Source: Planctomycetota bacterium
GTDB taxonomy: Bacteria > Planctomycetota > Phycisphaerae > Phycisphaerales > SM1A02
NCBI GenBank assembly: GCA_014381305.1
Contig: JACNLW010000024.1
Location: 1-34,228, forward strand
Direction: 5' to 3'
Length of the DNA stretch: 34,228 nt
Of this stretch, positions 12,852 through 31,159 are shown piece by piece. A model generated the notes under the pieces. That model saw only the letters and a program-made list of their open reading frames with translations, ran no database searches and was not told where the DNA came from. How positions within the stretch are numbered: position 1 is the stretch's first letter; each line of letters opens with the position of its first letter. The position numbers and the translations under genes are program-made.

Positions 12852-12996
12852 ATATTAAATTCCTATCGTTCGTCCCCCAATTGCAATATCGGGCGTTTAG
12901 AACGCCGCCTGAAGAGCAGACCTCCGATTTCACAAAAAAGGAAGTTTTTTGGCGGTAACTATCGGACTATCACTATCCTTTGGTACGCTATACCGC

Positions 12997-13839
12997 ATGT
13001 CAAAGTTCACATCAATCAACGGTGTCGGAATAGGGAGCGATGCGCCCCTACTCATCATTGCGGGTCCTTGCGTTCTTGAATCTAAGGAACAAGCAATGCA
13101 CATTGCATCAACCCTCCAATCTATTTGCCGAGATTGTGGCGTCGGTTTTATTTTTAAAGGCAGTTTCGATAAAGCAAATCGAACAAGTTTGCTTTCTCAT
13201 CGAGGTCCCGGCATCGACGAGGGTCTCGAAATACTACAGCATGTAAAAGAGGAACTACACGTACCGGTCACAACAGACGTACACGAAGCAGTACAAGCAA
13301 CCAAAGTTGCGAAGGTTGCAGACATTCTGCAAGTTCCTGCTTTCCTTTGCAGGCAAACTGACTTACTTGTTGCATGTGCTGAAACTGGCAAACCAGTGAA
13401 TGTTAAAAAAGGGCAGTTTATCTCGCCTGATGAAATGAAACATGTTGTACATAAACTTGGCGAATCAAATTGCACCGATGTAGTGCTCACCGAACGAGGT
13501 ACGTTCTTTGGATACAACAGACTTGTAAATGATTTCATTGGTCTTGGAGATCTGATGGACATTGGCCCTCCCGTTTGCTTTGATGTAACGCATTCAACGC
13601 AACTCCCCGGCGCTGGCAAAAATCAAACTGCAGGCAGACCCGACCGAGCAGCACTTCTTGCGCGTGCCGCAACCGCTGCCGGCGTCCCCGCCCTGTTCCT
13701 AGAATGCCACCCTGACCCAGTCAATGCTGCGTCCGATGCAAGCACAATGCAGCGACTTGACGTGATGGCTGGTTTGATTAAATCGTGCGCAGCAATCTCG
13801 CAACTCAATAATTCCACTCGTGAAGCGGTGCAATCATGA
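12997..13839 (+). CDS. kdsA: 3-deoxy-D-manno-octulosonate 8-phosphate synthase (metal-dependent type)
   Basis: This enzyme condenses phosphoenolpyruvate with arabinose 5-phosphate to give KDO 8-phosphate for lipid A core. From the ATG at 12997 it is 280 residues, the family norm; a TTG at 12949 preceded by AAGGAAG is an alternative that adds 16 residues. Landmarks are IIAGPCVLES, FKGSFDKANRTS, GPPVCFDVTHSTQLPG, LECHPDP and NAASDASTM. The Cys in GPCVLES sits where metal-independent enzymes such as E. coli KdsA have Asn. The His, Glu and Asp of the metal site are present, so this is the class II metal-dependent type. It heads an operon with mcsA, mcsB, gluQ and a DUF192 gene, away from kdsD/kdsC at 26-28 kb. 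Confidence 0.95.
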   Translation: MSKFTSINGVGIGSDAPLLIIAGPCVLESKEQAMHIASTLQSICRDCGVGFIFKGSFDKANRTSLLSHRGPGIDEGLEILQHVKEELHVPVTTDVHEAVQATKVAKVADILQVPAFLCRQTDLLVACAETGKPVNVKKGQFISPDEMKHVVHKLGESNCTDVVLTERGTFFGYNRLVNDFIGLGDLMDIGPPVCFDVTHSTQLPGAGKNQTAGRPDRAALLARAATAAGVPALFLECHPDPVNAASDASTMQRLDVMAGLIKSCAAISQLNNSTREAVQS

Positions 13840-14330
13840 CTACGTGTGACTATTGCAAGCGCCCAGCGATCTATCACGATACAAGAGTTTCAAACGGCAT
13901 CACAAAAACAGTAAGTCTTTGCGAGGACCATGCCAAAGAAGCGGGTATTGATATTGGTCCAGATGGCATTTCAATCTCACTCACCCCTGAAATGATGGGT
14001 TTTACTTTCACCCCATCAATCAGCACTTGCCCCGACTGTGGGATGGCACTTGCTGACTATAAAGAGAAAGCACTACTCGGTTGCCCCGAATGTTACGTTA
14101 CATTTAAAGAACAACTTATTCCAGTCATTGCGAACTTGCAAGAGAAACATACGCAACACGTAGGTCGATCACCCCGTAGAGCAAGCGCCGATATTGATCG
14201 TCATATTGCAATTCGAAGATTGCTCTCAGACCTTGAACGTGCAGTTACGCAGGAAGCATACGAAGAAGCAGCGGATATCCGAGACACGCTCAGAGATCTC
14301 CACCAAAAGGATGATGACAGTGCACTTTGA
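13836..14330 (+). CDS. mcsA: McsA-like protein arginine kinase activator (zinc-finger, UVR motif)
   Basis: In Bacillus, McsA is a zinc protein that activates the kinase McsB, which marks proteins for ClpCP degradation. This 164-residue protein shows two zinc modules: Cys4/Cys7 with Cys29/His32, and Cys65/Cys68 with Cys83/Cys86. The C-terminal helical UVR motif (about 125-160) reads RRLLSDLERAVTQEAYEEAA. The length and order match McsA. It overlaps kdsA by ATGA, and mcsB starts 17 nt before its stop, so the pair is translationally coupled. No ctsR or clpC is found in the window. Confidence 0.9.
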   Translation: MTTCDYCKRPAIYHDTRVSNGITKTVSLCEDHAKEAGIDIGPDGISISLTPEMMGFTFTPSISTCPDCGMALADYKEKALLGCPECYVTFKEQLIPVIANLQEKHTQHVGRSPRRASADIDRHIAIRRLLSDLERAVTQEAYEEAADIRDTLRDLHQKDDDSAL

Positions 14331-15363
14331 TCCTAATATTAACTGTCCATACGCTAGCGGAACAACTGCTTTTGGAGATGTTGTACTCAGTTCAAGAGCG
14401 AGACTCGCAAGAAATCTTGAAGGTTTTCCGTTTGTCAATAGCGCATCAGTAGGCGACTGCGAAGAAGTAGAACTCCTCCTCGCCCCTGCTTGCAACTGCG
14501 ACGATGACTTTACACTTGTTTGGGTAGATCTTCACAAACTTTCAAAAGTTGAGCGAGCTATGTGCGCAGAGCGCCATCTCATCTCGACGAACTTCGCAGA
14601 TGCAGACAACCCCCGCGGGGTAATGGTTGGACCAGAACTCGCGCGGAGCATCATGATTAACGAAGAAGATCATTTGCGTATCCAATCCATTAAGCCAGGG
14701 CTCGATTTGCTCAACGCACACAATGATGTCATGGCAATGGATCAACGTATGGAAAAGCTTGTCGCGTATGCATTCGATGAACAGCTCGGTTTCCTTACCG
14801 CTTGTCCGACGAACGTTGGAACTGGTGCACGTTTTAGTGTGATGATGCACTTGCCCGCCCTTCGAATTACAAAAGGTTTTAGACAACTCTACAATGCTTG
14901 TGAGGGGATGTCCATTGCCATCCGAGGCTACCACGGCGAAGGTTCAGAAACAATTGCAGACCTGTATCAACTCAGTAATCAAGTAACCCTTGGGTACAAT
15001 GAAGAGGATCTAAGATCGATGCTTGAAGATGAGTTCCTCCCAACTGTCATTGAAAATGAACGCAACGCGAGAATGAAAATCATTGAGAAATACGGGGCAA
15101 AACTCGACGATCGCGTTTTTAGAGCGCAAGGCATTTTAGAAAACGCAACGATTCTTCCACTCGACGAGGCGATGGATTGTTTAGGGCGAGTGCGACTTGG
15201 CGTTTCCCTAGAGCGGATAACAAATCTTGAGATCAACACGATTAACCAACTGTTTATTGACATTCAAAATGGTCATTTGCAATGGCGATATGACGGAAAT
15301 CTCAGCGAAGCCGAATTGCAAGAAAAGAGAGCCACACTTGTCAAAGAGAAATTTGCAGCGTGA
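14314..15363 (+). CDS. mcsB: Protein arginine kinase McsB
   Basis: This phosphagen-kinase-fold enzyme phosphorylates arginine residues in proteins. The start is at 14314, with AAAAGG just upstream; 14311 or a GTG at 14320 are possible. It gives 349 residues, close to Bacillus McsB. Landmarks are VLSSRARLARN (ATP-binding arginines), NEEDHLRIQS (residues 116-125, with catalytic acids), and ACPTNVGTG with the active-site Cys at about 164 (Cys167 in B. subtilis). RGYHGEGSE lies in the usual position. It overlaps mcsA by 17 bp and gluQ by GTGA. An open reading frame extending back to 14194 runs through mcsA and is rejected. Confidence 0.93.
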   Translation: MTVHFDPNINCPYASGTTAFGDVVLSSRARLARNLEGFPFVNSASVGDCEEVELLLAPACNCDDDFTLVWVDLHKLSKVERAMCAERHLISTNFADADNPRGVMVGPELARSIMINEEDHLRIQSIKPGLDLLNAHNDVMAMDQRMEKLVAYAFDEQLGFLTACPTNVGTGARFSVMMHLPALRITKGFRQLYNACEGMSIAIRGYHGEGSETIADLYQLSNQVTLGYNEEDLRSMLEDEFLPTVIENERNARMKIIEKYGAKLDDRVFRAQGILENATILPLDEAMDCLGRVRLGVSLERITNLEINTINQLFIDIQNGHLQWRYDGNLSEAELQEKRATLVKEKFAA

Positions 15364-25216: not shown

Positions 25217-25981
25217 CTAAGGAGAGATTTTCTCTATCGTGATCTCGCCCCACTGACTTTCTTGCGCAACTGTTACTTTTCCGGTTCGTACAAGTTCGAG
25301 CGTTGCGAGAAACATTCCAACACGTTCTACAGTTTTCAATCCATCGAATGTTGAATGCAACGTAATCGTGCCGTCAATTGATCGTGATAATCTGTCAAGC
25401 AAATCTTCTTGGCACAATTCAATTGGTGTATCGTCAATTTCAATCCGATGTTCGCCAAGGCGAGCGAAATCAATTGCAGAAGCAATATGTTCATACGCAT
25501 CTGCTAAATCTAAAACATGCACATCATCAAGTTCAAGCGATTGTTCTTCTTCCACTTCTACTTCTTTAATCTGTACACGCGTGCGGTACCGCAAGGCAAA
25601 CAACGACTTTTTCTTTTCTAGTTCCTCAGAAGCAGTGCGGATCCGTTGAAAAGCGAGAAGTTGGCGAATCAAATCCTCTCGAGGGTCTAACTTGGACTCG
25701 CTTGTCGATTCATCGGATTCTTCCTCATTGCGCTGGTCAGCAGGAACGAGGGCTCGAGATTTAATCTCAATCAAAGTCGCTGCCATCACGAGAAACTCGC
25801 CTGCCATATCAATATCAATGGTTGTCGCATGATGGAGCACTGCGAGATACTCGTCTGTGACCTTCGCGATCTCAATGTCCTGAATATCTACTTCTGTACG
25901 ACGCACGAGGTACAGAAGGAGGTCAAGGGGGCCGTCGAAGGCTTCTAATGAGACTCTAAATTGCTCTTGTGGTAAAATCAT
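25217..25981 (-). CDS. scpA: Segregation and condensation protein A
   Basis: ScpA is the kleisin subunit bridging SMC heads in chromosome segregation. From ATG 25981 it is 254 residues; starts at 26014/26017 with AAGGG upstream are possible and would add 11-12 residues. The kleisin N-terminus FRVSLEAFDGPLDLLLYLVR is diagnostic. It is followed by EFLVMAATLIEIKSRALVP, a charged linker rich in Glu and Ser, and a C-terminal winged-helix-like domain. No scpB or smc gene lies alongside. It diverges from kdsD with a short shared promoter region. Confidence 0.93.
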   Translation of the reverse strand: MILPQEQFRVSLEAFDGPLDLLLYLVRRTEVDIQDIEIAKVTDEYLAVLHHATTIDIDMAGEFLVMAATLIEIKSRALVPADQRNEEESDESTSESKLDPREDLIRQLLAFQRIRTASEELEKKKSLFALRYRTRVQIKEVEVEEEQSLELDDVHVLDLADAYEHIASAIDFARLGEHRIEIDDTPIELCQEDLLDRLSRSIDGTITLHSTFDGLKTVERVGMFLATLELVRTGKVTVAQESQWGEITIEKISP

Positions 25982-26024
25982 GTGCTGATTGCCGCTCCTG
26001 CGGTACAATTGCATCATAACCCTT

Positions 26025-27062
26025 ATGAACGCACCACGCCAATATCAAAAATCCGCACCTGATACCGAAGCCTCTTTCATCAGTGAAGTCCTTCAAGCGG
26101 AATCTGACGCGATCCAACGCGTCGCTTATGAAATTGCTGCAAACGCAACTACGCTTGCACAATGGTCCAAAGCGATTGATATTCTCGAATCGTGTACGGG
26201 GCACGTCATTTTTAGTGGCATGGGGAAATCCGGCCTTGTTGGCGCGAAGCTCTCAGCAACATTTTCTAGCATTGGCCAACCTTCCCACGTTGTCCACCCT
26301 TCTGAAGCAGTACATGGCGACCTCGGTTCAATCAAGCCCAACGATGTCGTCATTCTTATGAGTTATTCTGGCACAACTGCAGAAGTCATAAATTTAGCTG
26401 CAATCTTAAGGACAGACAACGTACCACGAATCGGCATCTCTTCTTCAAATGATTCACCCCTTGCGAAACTTTGTGATGTTCATCTGTCAATTGGCGAGAT
26501 AACCGAAGCGTGTCCGCTCAATCTCGCACCGACCGCATCAACAACAGCCACACTTGCAATTGGAGACGCACTTGGGCTCGCCGTTGCGAGAAGACGAAAC
26601 TTTTCCGCAGATGATTTCCACAAGCATCACCCCGGCGGCATGCTCGGGACAGGATTACGTGCAATTACTGAAATTTTACGATTCAAAGTTGGCGACAACC
26701 TTCCAACGGTGCATACTTCAACACTTGTAGGAGAAGCCCTCCGCGTTGCAAGGCCTACAACCAATAAACGAAGGGCGGGAGCTATTTTACTCGTTGATGA
26801 TGATGGCAAACTCGTCGGCATTTTCACCGACGGCGATCTCCGAAGATTAGTTATTGATAATCCTGAACCAATGCATTGTATTATTGGTGAAGTTGCAACA
26901 ACAAATCCAAGACGCCTTCCAACGAGCGCTCTTGTTCGAGACGCCAAACAACTTGTCACTGAACATCGAGTTGATGAAATTCCAGTTGTCGATGAACACA
27001 ACAATCCTATAGGACTGATCGATGTCCAAGACCTTATCGCGATGAAAGTCGTTACGGAGTAA
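26025..27062 (+). CDS. kdsD: Arabinose-5-phosphate isomerase (KpsF/GutQ type)
   Basis: This enzyme converts ribulose 5-phosphate to arabinose 5-phosphate, the first step of KDO synthesis. The start at 26025 (MNAPRQYQKS) gives 345 residues. The SIS domain covers about 40-180, with FSGMGKSGLVGAKLSATF, HPSEAVHGDLG, MSYSGTTAEVI and a HHPGGMLG ending. Two CBS domains occupy about 205-345 (VGIFTDGDLRRLV and HRVDEIPVVDEHNNPIGLI). TACAAT lies 15 nt upstream of the ATG. It starts an operon that continues with an Ntn hydrolase (2-bp gap), kdsC and an LptC-like gene. Confidence 0.95.
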   Translation: MNAPRQYQKSAPDTEASFISEVLQAESDAIQRVAYEIAANATTLAQWSKAIDILESCTGHVIFSGMGKSGLVGAKLSATFSSIGQPSHVVHPSEAVHGDLGSIKPNDVVILMSYSGTTAEVINLAAILRTDNVPRIGISSSNDSPLAKLCDVHLSIGEITEACPLNLAPTASTTATLAIGDALGLAVARRRNFSADDFHKHHPGGMLGTGLRAITEILRFKVGDNLPTVHTSTLVGEALRVARPTTNKRRAGAILLVDDDGKLVGIFTDGDLRRLVIDNPEPMHCIIGEVATTNPRRLPTSALVRDAKQLVTEHRVDEIPVVDEHNNPIGLIDVQDLIAMKVVTE

Positions 27063-27064
27063 CC

Positions 27065-27634
27065 ATGTCAGTAATCGTAGCAATCAAAAAACACAACCAC
27101 GTCGTGATGGCAGCTGACACGCTTACAAGTTTTGGTGATTCTGAACATATGCCACAAGAAAATGCACGCACAAGCAAAGTTGGCCGCATCGGCGACTCAC
27201 TCATTGGAGGCGCTGGCTGGGCTGTGTACGACGATATTCTCAACGACTTTCTTTCGACTCGGCCAACTCCTGATCTTTCAAGTGCCCGCAAAATATTTAC
27301 ATTTTTCTTAGACTTCTGGCGTGCATTGCATGACCATTACACGTTTGTAAATGACCAAGCGGCAAATATCAGTTCACCATTTGGAGATTTGGACTCTACT
27401 TTTTTGATCGCAAATGCGGGAGGCATCTTTACCGTTGCTTCTGACATGGGAGTCACTCCACTCAATAAGTATTACGCAATCGGTTCTGGCGGTGAATACG
27501 CAATCGGTGTTCTCTATACCTTGTACAACAGAACGGATGATATAGAATCAATCGCTACCGACGCAGTCCAAGCAGCCATTGCGATGAACTTACAATGTGG
27601 CGGCGCAGTTGACGTTCTTAAACTATCAATATGA
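27065..27634 (+). CDS. Proteasome/HslV-like Ntn hydrolase with N-terminal serine
   Basis: A 189-residue member of the proteasome-beta/HslV fold. After removal of Met the chain begins SVIVAIKKHNHVVMAADT, which lines up with the HslV start: the nucleophile position is Ser1 (usually Thr), Asp17 is in place, and the catalytic Lys (Lys33 of HslV) corresponds to Lys37 in TSKVGRIGD after a four-residue insertion. IGGAGWAVYDD and YAIGSGGEYAIGVLYTLY follow the family pattern, and the length fits HslV (about 175-185). No HslU-type ATPase is nearby. It sits between kdsD and kdsC, 2 bp after the first and overlapping the second by ATGA, so it is surely co-expressed with KDO synthesis. The substrate is unknown. 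Ser as nucleophile is known in Bacillus HslV (CodW). Confidence 0.82.
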   Translation: MSVIVAIKKHNHVVMAADTLTSFGDSEHMPQENARTSKVGRIGDSLIGGAGWAVYDDILNDFLSTRPTPDLSSARKIFTFFLDFWRALHDHYTFVNDQAANISSPFGDLDSTFLIANAGGIFTVASDMGVTPLNKYYAIGSGGEYAIGVLYTLYNRTDDIESIATDAVQAAIAMNLQCGGAVDVLKLSI

Positions 27635-28161
27635 CAACACTAGAAAACATTTCAGTTCTTGCTCTTGATGTCGATGGAGTGCTCACAGATGGCACAATAA
27701 TTTTCACGCAATACACCGGCGTAGAAAATAAAAAATTCCACGTGCACGATGGTCTTGGGATTTCTCTTTGGCTCAAAGCAGGAAACGAAGTCATTCTTAT
27801 TAGCGGCCGCAAAGCAGATTGCGTAAATATCAGAGCAAAAGAACTCGGCATCAAACATGTCCTCCAAGGGAGCAAGGATAAAATTGCAGATCTAGATAAA
27901 ACGCTTTCCAAAATTGGTGCGATGCCTGCACACACTGCTTTTGTAGGAGACGATCTTGGCGACATCACAGTGATGCAACATGTCGGCTACGCAATTGCTG
28001 TACATGATGCCGCACAAGAAGTAAAAGATATTTCAAATTGGATCACACGCAGAGATGGCGGGCGCGGCGCAGTTCGCGATGCCATAGAACATATTATGAA
28101 AGAAACAGGATGTTGGCAAGATGCCATCAACACAGAACAATCTATAACCGCGCAGCAATGA
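27631..28161 (+). CDS. kdsC: 3-deoxy-D-manno-octulosonate 8-phosphate phosphatase
   Basis: This HAD-superfamily phosphatase releases KDO from KDO 8-phosphate. The 176-residue protein is of the compact, capless C0 type that forms tetramers. Catalytic Asp13 and Asp15 lie in LALDVDGVLTDG. HVHDGLGISLWLKAG, ILISGRKAD, GSKDKIADL and VGDDLGDITVM supply the other HAD motifs, and the C-terminal GGRGAVRDAIEHI is typical of KdsC. It follows the Ntn hydrolase with ATGA overlap and precedes the LptC-like gene by 13 bp. Confidence 0.95.
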   Translation: MTTLENISVLALDVDGVLTDGTIIFTQYTGVENKKFHVHDGLGISLWLKAGNEVILISGRKADCVNIRAKELGIKHVLQGSKDKIADLDKTLSKIGAMPAHTAFVGDDLGDITVMQHVGYAIAVHDAAQEVKDISNWITRRDGGRGAVRDAIEHIMKETGCWQDAINTEQSITAQQ

Positions 28162-28174
28162 ATGGACGCATCGC

Positions 28175-31159
28175 ATGAGCACAAATGAATCTCCTCGAAA
28201 CACACTCCTTCCTGAACCACCACCACACCCAACGAAGTTTGCCGCAAAAAAACTGACTTGGATCATAGTTGGAGTAACAGGATGTTTTTGCATCCTCGTT
28301 CTCGCTTTATTATTTACTCTTTCTGATCGCCAGCCAACAAACCAAAACACAGCGCAAAGTGATGACGTTATTGCTTTATTAGAAGCAGAAACTGAGATTG
28401 TCGACATTGCAGAAGTCACTTCCGAAGATGTAGGTGTTGCGCTTTCCTCTGGTGGTTGGATTCAACAAACAGATGCGCTGGGAAATCTCGCGCAGCAATA
28501 CCGTTGCACTTCGCTTGACCCCGCCCCTGCGAACATGCCAACTGGGTGGATTGAAATGGTTGATCCTGATGTTGAACTTTTTTTAAGCGAAAATCGGGTT
28601 GTACGTATCACAGGAGACACTGCAATTGCCAACGCACCCAACCGTGTGCTTGAATCGGGTGACATCTATGGGAATGTCAAGATTGAATTGTTTGAAGGAA
28701 TCAACATCAACACCCAAACAGACACACCGGCGATTGTAATGACAACACCCCAAGCAAGTTTTGATAACTTTTTAGGTGAAGTTACATGTGAAAGTGAAGT
28801 TCGCATTGTTTCTGCAGATCATTCATCTCTCATCGGCAGGCAACTTGCTATTCGGTTTAACGATACCAATGGTAGAATTGAGTACTTGCGGTTAGAAGAG
28901 GTAGACTCGATCACGTTGTATCAAAACAGCACGCAAACGGCACGCGTTCAGAATCCCCCTTCTGTGCACAAATCTTACAGACCTTCTGCACACCACGTTT
29001 CGGCTGGTGCAATTCAAAATAACGAGCAATACTACTTACTCACTCTTGCAGAGTATGTAGTCATCAAGCAAGGTGACGTTCTTACAGGCAAGGAAGCTCG
29101 CGGCAACGAAATGACCATAGCGTTTGCACTTTCTCGAACGAACAGTGTGCAATCTAACCTTCGTAGACCAAGTGCGCCTTTATCTGCAAATGCAACAATC
29201 ATCGCCTCGCTCATGGGCGCGAACGTTGAACCAACAGATCAATCTAGTTTCTCCACCCCGCTTCCACCAACAAATATCACGCCCACAATTATTACCTGTA
29301 ACGGCGGGCTTACAATGCTGCCACTTGATGATGCCAAATTGACGCCGACGTTTCCTGAGGAAACACGGCTTGAAATTTTTGGTACTCCAAACACTCCTGC
29401 AATTCTCATTGATCATGCATCTGACATGTCCGCTCGAGCCAATGTCGTTCGCTATGAGATAGAGCAGGATCGGATGGATTTGTTTGGAGATGATTCGGCT
29501 CAAGCGGTAGTTACTATGAACGATGCAACTGCGTATGCGCATCATCTTTGGATTTCTCAAAAAACGGGCGTGGGGAAAATTGTAGGCGATGGATCTCTTG
29601 AGCAACATCCAAAAACGGGAATCAAAACAACAATCACTTGGCAAGGTGGAGTTGATTTTACGATGACTCCTGCAACTGATGCATCCGATGGCGGTATTCT
29701 CAAACAAGTAATTTGTAATAAAGATATTCGCATGACAACAGAGGAAAGTGAACTTACTTGCGACATTCTTGATATTCTTTTTACTGCAAATGCTGATGGA
29801 TCATCTTCGCCGGAACTTGCAATTGCAACGGGGAATGTCAAAGGGATCAGTGATACGCAAACCCTTTGGGCAACCAAAGCTGAAGTTACATTCGTTGAAG
29901 CGCCTGATGAAAACAAATCTGAAAATTTTGCTGGTTCAATGCAAGCAGACAAAATGACGGCGACGGGTGATGTGCAAGTGTTACTCAATGATGGCGGAAG
30001 AGCATTTTGCGACACACTTCGTGGAGACATCAATCAATCAATCGCAGAACTTGAAGGCAATGTAGTTGTTGCATATAAGCGGATGCTCATGGATCGAGGG
30101 GACAATGCACGGTTCAAAATCAATCGTTCAACTGGCAAAGGGCTTTGGGAGGGTCCGGGTCAAGCCAGATTCCTCACGCAACCATTACTTGTGAATCAAG
30201 ATCAACGAATAAAGCGTCCCTCAGTCAACGTTGATCCAGATGAAACAGTTGATGACCCAAAAGCACAGCATGTATCAATGCGTGCGACGTGGGAAGATTC
30301 GATGGCAATGGACCAGCATTTCAACAACGACGGAGGTCTCATTGACTTTCGCGGCAACGTCATTGCAAGAAGCAGGCAATCTTCTCTTGAACTCACTGAG
30401 ATACAAAGTGAAAACTTACAGTTTGAATTCACAAACGATCCCTTACCAAACACAACACTTGAAGAGGACCAGAGAAGAGTCCAACGGGTCATCGCACGGG
30501 AAGAAGCGAAGTTTGAACACCGACTATGGTCAAAAGATCGCCCGACTGAACTCCCTGTTTTGTATTACATTGGTGGAGATCATATCGAATACGAAACTGA
30601 TACTTCTGAACTTTACACAGTAGGCAATGGAGAAATGGTTATTAGAGATAATCGCAAACCAGAGAACACTACACACCAGTCGTCACTTGCAGGAAGAGGC
30701 ACAACGCACTTCACGTGGGACGGCAATTTAAGAACAACTAGAATCTCTGACGACTTGTATCGAATTAGAATGACAGACAATGTGCAGATGTTACACAAAG
30801 GGCTCGATGGCATGATTGGAATGCTCACTGCCAACACCATCAACGCAATTTCAAAAAACACAACTGCCCAATCGGAAAAAAATGAATCTACTGTGATGAT
30901 GCGGGGCATGGACGTCAGAGAGATCAAGGCAGAGGACAATGTGTATGTTTCAACGACCACAAGACGAGTGGACTGCGATATCTTTGACTACAACTTACAA
31001 ACTGGGCTGGCGAAACTTTCTGCAATCGAAGGAAAAACTGTCGCGATTGTGACCGAAGGCACACCGTATCCAGTACGAGCTACGAGCATAGTTTGGAACA
31101 TGGACCCTGCTATTGATTCAATCAGAATTGATGGATTACAAGGTTCCTCGACGCAGTAG
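28175..31159 (+). CDS. Very large LptC/LptA (OstA)-like lipopolysaccharide transport protein
   Basis: A 994-residue envelope protein with a cytoplasmic N-terminus of about 26 residues and one membrane helix at about 27-48. A long periplasmic part follows with repeated beta-jellyroll-like segments of LptC/LptA/OstA type. Examples are IANAPNRVLESGDIYGNV, RANVVRYEIEQDRMDLFGDD, TATGDVQVLLNDGGRAFCDT followed by ELEGNVVVAYKRM, IDFRGNVIARSRQSSLELTE, and VDCDIFDYNLQTGLAKLSA. Each pairs a strand of the type xxGNVxx with residues describing a beta strand pair. Classical LptC has about 190 residues and LptA about 180, so this looks like an LptC anchor fused to several LptA-like modules. The position after kdsD and kdsC supports an LPS role. 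No lptB, lptF/G or lptD is in the window. Confidence 0.8.
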   Translation: MSTNESPRNTLLPEPPPHPTKFAAKKLTWIIVGVTGCFCILVLALLFTLSDRQPTNQNTAQSDDVIALLEAETEIVDIAEVTSEDVGVALSSGGWIQQTDALGNLAQQYRCTSLDPAPANMPTGWIEMVDPDVELFLSENRVVRITGDTAIANAPNRVLESGDIYGNVKIELFEGININTQTDTPAIVMTTPQASFDNFLGEVTCESEVRIVSADHSSLIGRQLAIRFNDTNGRIEYLRLEEVDSITLYQNSTQTARVQNPPSVHKSYRPSAHHVSAGAIQNNEQYYLLTLAEYVVIKQGDVLTGKEARGNEMTIAFALSRTNSVQSNLRRPSAPLSANATIIASLMGANVEPTDQSSFSTPLPPTNITPTIITCNGGLTMLPLDDAKLTPTFPEETRLEIFGTPNTPAILIDHASDMSARANVVRYEIEQDRMDLFGDDSAQAVVTMNDATAYAHHLWISQKTGVGKIVGDGSLEQHPKTGIKTTITWQGGVDFTMTPATDASDGGILKQVICNKDIRMTTEESELTCDILDILFTANADGSSSPELAIATGNVKGISDTQTLWATKAEVTFVEAPDENKSENFAGSMQADKMTATGDVQVLLNDGGRAFCDTLRGDINQSIAELEGNVVVAYKRMLMDRGDNARFKINRSTGKGLWEGPGQARFLTQPLLVNQDQRIKRPSVNVDPDETVDDPKAQHVSMRATWEDSMAMDQHFNNDGGLIDFRGNVIARSRQSSLELTEIQSENLQFEFTNDPLPNTTLEEDQRRVQRVIAREEAKFEHRLWSKDRPTELPVLYYIGGDHIEYETDTSELYTVGNGEMVIRDNRKPENTTHQSSLAGRGTTHFTWDGNLRTTRISDDLYRIRMTDNVQMLHKGLDGMIGMLTANTINAISKNTTAQSEKNESTVMMRGMDVREIKAEDNVYVSTTTRRVDCDIFDYNLQTGLAKLSAIEGKTVAIVTEGTPYPVRATSIVWNMDPAIDSIRIDGLQGSSTQ

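Follow-up and report, generated by a model that had tools for sequence, protein, structure and literature searches.

The window analysed here is a stretch of 34,228 nucleotides (contig JACNLW010000024.1 of assembly GCA_014381305.1) from a member of the Phycisphaerales, and it carries a gene for a proteasome-family Ntn hydrolase between kdsD and kdsC. The features referred to below are as follows, with the active-site residues of the hydrolase numbered from the serine after the initiator methionine.

12949..13839, + strand: kdsA, KDO-8-phosphate synthase (TIGR01362 335.2 bits, over cut-off; PF00793)
25217..26017, - strand: scpA, divergent, upstream neighbour of kdsD (named from the protein sequence alone; synteny)
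26025..27062, + strand: kdsD / kpsF, arabinose-5-phosphate isomerase with SIS and CBS domains (TIGR00393 255.9 bits, cut-off 203.7)
27065..27634, + strand: BPH gene, Ser-type proteasome-family Ntn hydrolase of 189 aa, the initiator Met presumably cleaved off so that Ser1 comes first
27068..27070, + strand: codon of Ser1, predicted nucleophile (ORF residue 2), aligned to Thr1 of BPH 5ovs/5ovt
27116..27118, + strand: codon of Asp17 (ORF residue 18)
27176..27178, + strand: codon of Lys37 (ORF residue 38)
27215..27217, + strand: codon of Gly50 (ORF residue 51), predicted oxyanion hole
27338..27403, + strand: pore-loop region YTFVNDQAANISSPFGDLDSTF (ORF residues 92-113), carrying the Ser-type motif VNDQ...SPFGDLD
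27631..28161, + strand: kdsC, KDO-8-phosphate phosphatase (TIGR01670 153.2 bits, cut-off 106.95)
28175..31159, + strand: large LptA/LptC-like protein of 994 aa (PF03968, LptA/LptD-N domain, over cut-off)

The longest open reading frame of kdsD opens with TTG at 25989, and the ATG at 26025 is the likely start. The kdsD and kdsC calls are based on subfamily models, the stricter equivalogs NF008141 and NF007019 scoring under their cut-offs, and LptC models match the 994-aa protein weakly and under cut-off. The kdsA gene is also on this contig, 12 kb ahead of kdsD, and LpxC is present elsewhere in the genome; the two together fit a functional pathway for KDO and lipid A. The kdsD stop codon TAA ends at 27062, leaving a 2-bp gap before the ATG of the BPH gene, whose TGA overlaps the ATG of kdsC as ATGA (27631-27634), so that the tight placement in a KDO operon described in the sequence-only reading is borne out. 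By eye, a GGAG lies just 5' of the BPH ATG, within the end of kdsD, and no obvious site of the GGAG type is seen 5' of kdsC; from this, kdsC is likely translated by coupled re-initiation. The neighbours of the BPH gene at the locus (scpA, kdsD, kdsC and the Lpt-like gene) include no AAA+ ATPase, in agreement with the earlier remark that no unfoldase is nearby. About 12 kb away, at 14194-15363 (+), the window also encodes an ATP:guanido phosphotransferase with a domain like that of the protein arginine kinase McsB. In Firmicutes, McsB tags proteins for degradation.

The open reading frame 27065-27634 (+) is not a chance one, given its Pfam score, its match to BPHs in the PDB and its full-length relatives in the genus. 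Its 189-aa translation opens with MSVIVAIKKHNHVVMAADTL, the part directly after Met being SVIVAIKKHNHVVMAADTL; the protein and its relatives start with MS-, i.e. they have no propeptide. In mature numbering (Ser = 1) the window protein has Asp17, Lys37, Gly50 and Ser140. The active-site set published for BPH, the betaproteobacterial proteasome homologue, is Asp17, Lys37, Gly50 and Ser139 (PMC5777263), and all of it is present here, with the equivalent of Ser139 shifted by one. Among 48 aligned relatives, Lys37 and Gly50 are invariant (48/48), residue 17 is Asp in 47 and Glu in one, and residue 1 is Ser in 45 and Thr in three. The proposal, made from the letters of this stretch, of a proteasome-family protein that has serine as its nucleophile and keeps its active site intact stands, as does the aspartate at position 17; the "Lys near Lys33" is indeed a lysine, but its position is 37, which is exactly that of the BPH lysine (PMC5777263).

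The Pfam Proteasome model scored 31.3 bits on the window protein (cut-off 22.4). In a phmmer search of the PDB the best matches were BPHs (E 1.6e-21 and 1.8e-20), aligned over nearly the whole chain, followed by a proteasome beta subunit at E 4.3e-5 and HslV at 6e-3. The HslV model reached 28 bits, far below its cut-off of 157.75, and proteasome beta models likewise stayed under theirs (archaeal beta 34.5 vs 224; another 13.3 vs 191.9). A 62-row tree split HslV from all BPH-type rows, the two crystallised BPHs included, with support of 100/100; AAH, CPH and PPH were outside this tree, which therefore excludes HslV only, the remainder of the assignment resting on the sequence and fold searches. 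An AlphaFold2 monomer model built from 48 relatives had a mean pLDDT of 92.5. Foldseek placed BPH chains at ranks 1-6, and the VIA-align Z scores were 26.9, 26.6 and 22.5 with BPH, the best HslV reaching 20.4. The alignment to 5ovt (Z 26.9, rmsd 1.4, 178 residues) puts model residue 2 (Ser) onto chain residue 1 (Thr1). The model has helices at 53-64 and 74-90, and its last element is a strand at 182-188; H5, the C-terminal coiled coil of Anbu, is missing. Anbu was absent among the phmmer PDB matches to E 10 and among the fold matches listed, the latter absence deciding nothing. On sequence and predicted fold, the window protein is thus assigned as a Ser-type BPH, a family with solved structures. 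An identity as HslV is rejected on the model score, the phmmer ranking, the tree split and the VIA-align Z scores, and the label "HslV-like" that the protein had carried gives way to this assignment.

According to Fuchs et al., BPH forms a double ring of 14 subunits, derives from HslV and has neither a propeptide nor a known unfoldase (PMC5777263). Epoxomicin is bound at Thr1, a proteasome-like binding of peptide-epoxyketones, and the two BPHs tested showed no proteolytic activity on peptides or casein; Ser1 was present in all the BPHs that these authors found outside Betaproteobacteria, serine reportedly being a less efficient nucleophile in the proteasome, and the operon contexts (argG, PDC, Hsp33) gave no clear clue (PMC5777263, 2018). 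A 2021 survey records BPH from the PVC group and finds no informative context for its homologues (PMC8665760). The Ser nucleophile and the absence of unfoldase and propeptide are accordingly already known BPH traits. The window protein resembles the solved BPHs of Thiobacillus denitrificans (5ovs/5ovt) and Cupriavidus metallidurans (5ovu) in its fold, its length of about 190 aa, a nucleophile at residue 2 without a propeptide, the Asp17-Lys37-Gly50-Ser139/140 set, the position of the pore loop and the lack of an adjacent unfoldase, and Ser1 variants are on record outside Betaproteobacteria (PMC5777263). It differs from them in having about 30% identity, Ser1 for Thr1, a kdsD-kdsC-lpt operon rather than argG, PDC or Hsp33, and a pore loop of the form VNDQ...SPFGDLD rather than the acidic GEDKEDDLE type. 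This loop is similar in length to that of BPH but holds only three acidic and no basic residues; many Ser-type relatives outside the window's family have 5-7 acidic residues there. The VNDQ...SPFGDLD motif, common to the Ser-type group and unlike the acidic Thr-type loop, suggests a manner of substrate admission different from that of the Thr-type. HslV (ClpQ), a double-ring relative, shares the proteasome beta-like Ntn fold and Asp17, but has Thr1, an HslU partner and weak sequence similarity, forms the separate clade (100/100) and was undetected in the genome. PPH of phages and their hosts (PMC8665760) is a Group I relative, but has about 140 residues, no helix H2 and a phage context. Connectase shares the proteasome-like Ntn fold and differs as an archaeal monomeric protein ligase without H1-H2.

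Thr1-type BPHs with an acidic Thr-type loop were also seen in a planctomycete family (f38; loci L068, 1501-2073; L069, 1477-2052; L071, 1501-2076), and two of them, L068 and L071, cluster with the Thiobacillus BPH (97/96); Thr1-type BPHs in planctomycetes contradict the 2018 statement that Ser1 is universal outside Betaproteobacteria. Locus L066 (1501-2073) encodes a Thr1 BPH on a long branch with a Ser-type-like loop (VNTQ...SPWGQFD), perhaps an independent Ser/Thr switch, and L067 (1477-2058) encodes a protein resembling BPH in which Ser1 is combined with Glu at position 17 and a loop of the Thr type, possibly an intermediate.

Of the 12 other genomes in the window's genus, 11 hold a full-length BPH relative. 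Across the whole genomes of 151 relatives, BPH occurs in 30, belonging to 13 genera that all fall within the window's own Phycisphaerales family. At every same-family locus besides the window (29/29), kdsD, kdsC and/or an lptC-like gene lies near the BPH gene on the same strand, whereas none of these three genes was found at the 12 BPH loci of other planctomycete families, within a 1.5 kb flank each. Among named genome records, 42 Phycisphaerales/Planctomycetota loci have at least one of kdsD, kdsC and lptC near BPH, with kdsD at most 500 nt upstream in 36 of the 41 that have sequence there and kdsC at most 200 nt downstream in 28; a further 20 named BPH loci, other Phycisphaerae included, have none of the three nearby. 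Context itself defined the division into 42 and 20, which is circular in part; the independent comparison is 29/29 against 0/12. The family placement of some named records was taken from matching contigs and tree position. The kdsD-Ntn-kdsC arrangement, which had been put forward for a check across planctomycetes, is therefore conserved within the window's family and not elsewhere in the phylum as sampled; as a general planctomycete arrangement it is rejected. Among the papers searched, none ties an Ntn hydrolase to arabinose-5-phosphate isomerase, and the main texts of PMC5777263 and PMC8665760 make no mention of Planctomycetes or kds genes for BPH; the kdsD-BPH-kdsC-lpt context appears to be unreported. 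What appears to be new is this conserved KDO-operon context in one lineage, the BPH family itself being already known and not a new kind of system.

In other lineages the neighbours of BPH differ and no common partner gene was found. In gammaproteobacterial bins they include mnmE and a PF10023 aminopeptidase, in KSB1 a 2-oxoacid dehydrogenase E1, and in a Spartobacterium an MFS transporter together with LptF/G; M23 peptidases occur as well. In gammaproteobacterial or Pseudomonadota bins, at two loci (L123, L142), BPH directly precedes the putative PF10023 aminopeptidase, a possible two-step peptide degradation unit, and at L132 and L142 it follows mnmE. A search of plasmids gave no BPH relatives and a search of phages two weak matches (29-30% identity), which may belong to PPH; a phage or plasmid origin is rejected on these results. 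The BPH tree is compatible with a single origin. On the kdsD tree, BPH presence needs about seven changes, for which one gain with subsequent losses and repeated gains are indistinguishable.

Within the window's family of 101 genomes, BPH is present in 26 (full-length matches) and HslV over cut-off in 35, both occurring together in 18 and HslV alone in 17, so that mutual exclusion of BPH and HslV is rejected. In the window's own genome, where BPH is present, HslV was not detected in a search with the family cut-off; a PF00227 search of this genome was empty, falsely so, as hmmscan does assign the window protein to that family, and the absence of HslV rests on the other search. No HslU over cut-off was found there either, the best match being 86 bits against 362 in a genome about 95% complete, in which the gene could be missed. 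Within the family, then, the active-site residues are well conserved and the arrangement recurs, and no hslV-hslU pair was detected elsewhere in the genome, the points on which the sequence-only reading had staked its case. KdsC over cut-off is present in 89 of the 101 genomes. Strict co-occurrence of BPH and KdsC is thereby rejected; BPH is optional in the family, most members having KdsC without it, and KDO synthesis is therefore independent of BPH. Same-family genomes without BPH retain scpA-kdsD, with kdsC still downstream of kdsD in 5 of 23 loci. In genus g34, three genomes (G045, G073, G242) have no KdsC over cut-off, yet kdsD-BPH-lptC is retained. The genomes are mostly metagenome bins in which single absences may be gaps, as perhaps in G002, where kdsD, BPH and an over-cut-off KdsC are all absent together. 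Measured against the nearest relative, dN is 0.031 for BPH, 0.084 for scpA, 0.087 for kdsD and 0.102 for kdsC, and BPH ranks lowest of these four proteins in each of the five within-genus pairs; dS is mostly saturated, and dN/dS ratios were set aside.

The reading favoured here, with moderate confidence, is that of an ATP-independent barrel peptidase whose substrate range is not tied to KDO and whose gene became fixed in the kds operon in a single lineage. It builds on the observed family identity, active-site residues, predicted fold, operon position and conservation, and to these we infer the following steps by analogy with the solved structures of BPH and the chemistry of the proteasome. 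Removal of the initiator Met would expose Ser1, which would attack the peptide bond with the assistance of Lys37 and Asp17, Gly50 lying in the oxyanion hole. The subunits would assemble into a closed tetradecameric double ring, in which the pore loop, not an AAA+ unfoldase, would control substrate entry, and the resulting self-compartmentalised, ATP-independent peptidase would most likely trim or clear unfolded polypeptides. In one Phycisphaerales family the gene would have been fixed in the kdsD-kdsC-lpt operon, probably via translational coupling and vertical inheritance, and from this fixed position BPH would be made together with the KDO enzymes. Because BPHs of other lineages adjoin unrelated genes, the core activity probably has no specific tie to KDO; slow evolution and the long-kept linkage could instead reflect a KDO-specific role. 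As the tested BPHs are inert, the term "peptidase" is taken from the labelling of Thr-type BPH with epoxomicin and MG132; the reportedly lower efficiency of Ser as a proteasome nucleophile also counts against this reading.

A dedicated regulator of the envelope, degrading a specific KDO, lipid A or LPS-transport enzyme such as KdsD, so that co-expression would set the level of the pathway, by analogy with the degradation of LpxC by FtsH in E. coli, is a real though minor possibility. The linkage to kdsD, kdsC and/or lptC at all same-family loci in 13 genera, its persistence in the genus g34 after kdsC had gone, the lowest dN among the operon genes tested, the joint absence in G002 and the presence of KdsA and LpxC all agree with it. 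It sits poorly with the excess of KdsC over BPH in the family, with the BPHs outside the family, which were never seen in a kds operon, and with the persistence of scpA-kdsD synteny without BPH, which makes the linkage partly inertia; G002 is possibly an assembly gap. The kdsD-BPH-kdsC-lpt linkage alone does not demonstrate that BPH acts on the KDO pathway, and the "dedicated envelope-regulating protease" suggested from this stretch is still a guess, given the many family genomes with KdsC and no BPH and the one genus that keeps BPH after loss of kdsC. The narrower claim, that the BPH encoded here is a dedicated ATP-independent KDO/lipid A regulator whose physiological substrate is an enzyme from the operon around it or from the pathway, is rather unlikely; if true, it would give a BPH its first known function.

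A non-proteolytic Ntn hydrolase or transferase, an amidase or ligase acting on a small molecule or a specific protein, would account for the inertness of the crystallised BPHs in protease assays (PMC5777263) and has a precedent in connectase, a family member turned ligase. It is improbable in view of the whole-chain match to a barrel-forming BPH (Z 26.9, 178 residues), the helices at 53-64 and 74-90 where connectase lacks H1-H2, and the proteasome-like binding of peptide-epoxyketones by BPH (PMC5777263). That the protein is an orphan HslV partnered with ClpX or another AAA+ ATPase is highly improbable: the superfamily is the same and the genome does have AAA+ ATPases (partial hslU-model matches, 86 bits, under cut-off), but the HslV model score, the tree split and the true HslV in 18 of the 26 same-family BPH genomes, which makes them two separate genes, all oppose it. 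Published accounts (PMC5777263, PMC8665760) give no substrate or function for any BPH, and the long-kept linkage in one family, some genomes of which have no detectable HslV, offers a concrete starting point for a substrate hunt.

Two minor features were seen at related loci. A partial second BPH copy comprising the first 50 residues occurs, in addition to an intact copy, in the genome of L014/L034 (G048:C205:11931-12080). At five same-family loci without BPH (L153, L158, L164, L165, L172), kdsD is followed by a small gene; the proteins so encoded are related to one another and judged from sequence to be STAS-like (anti-sigma-antagonist-like).
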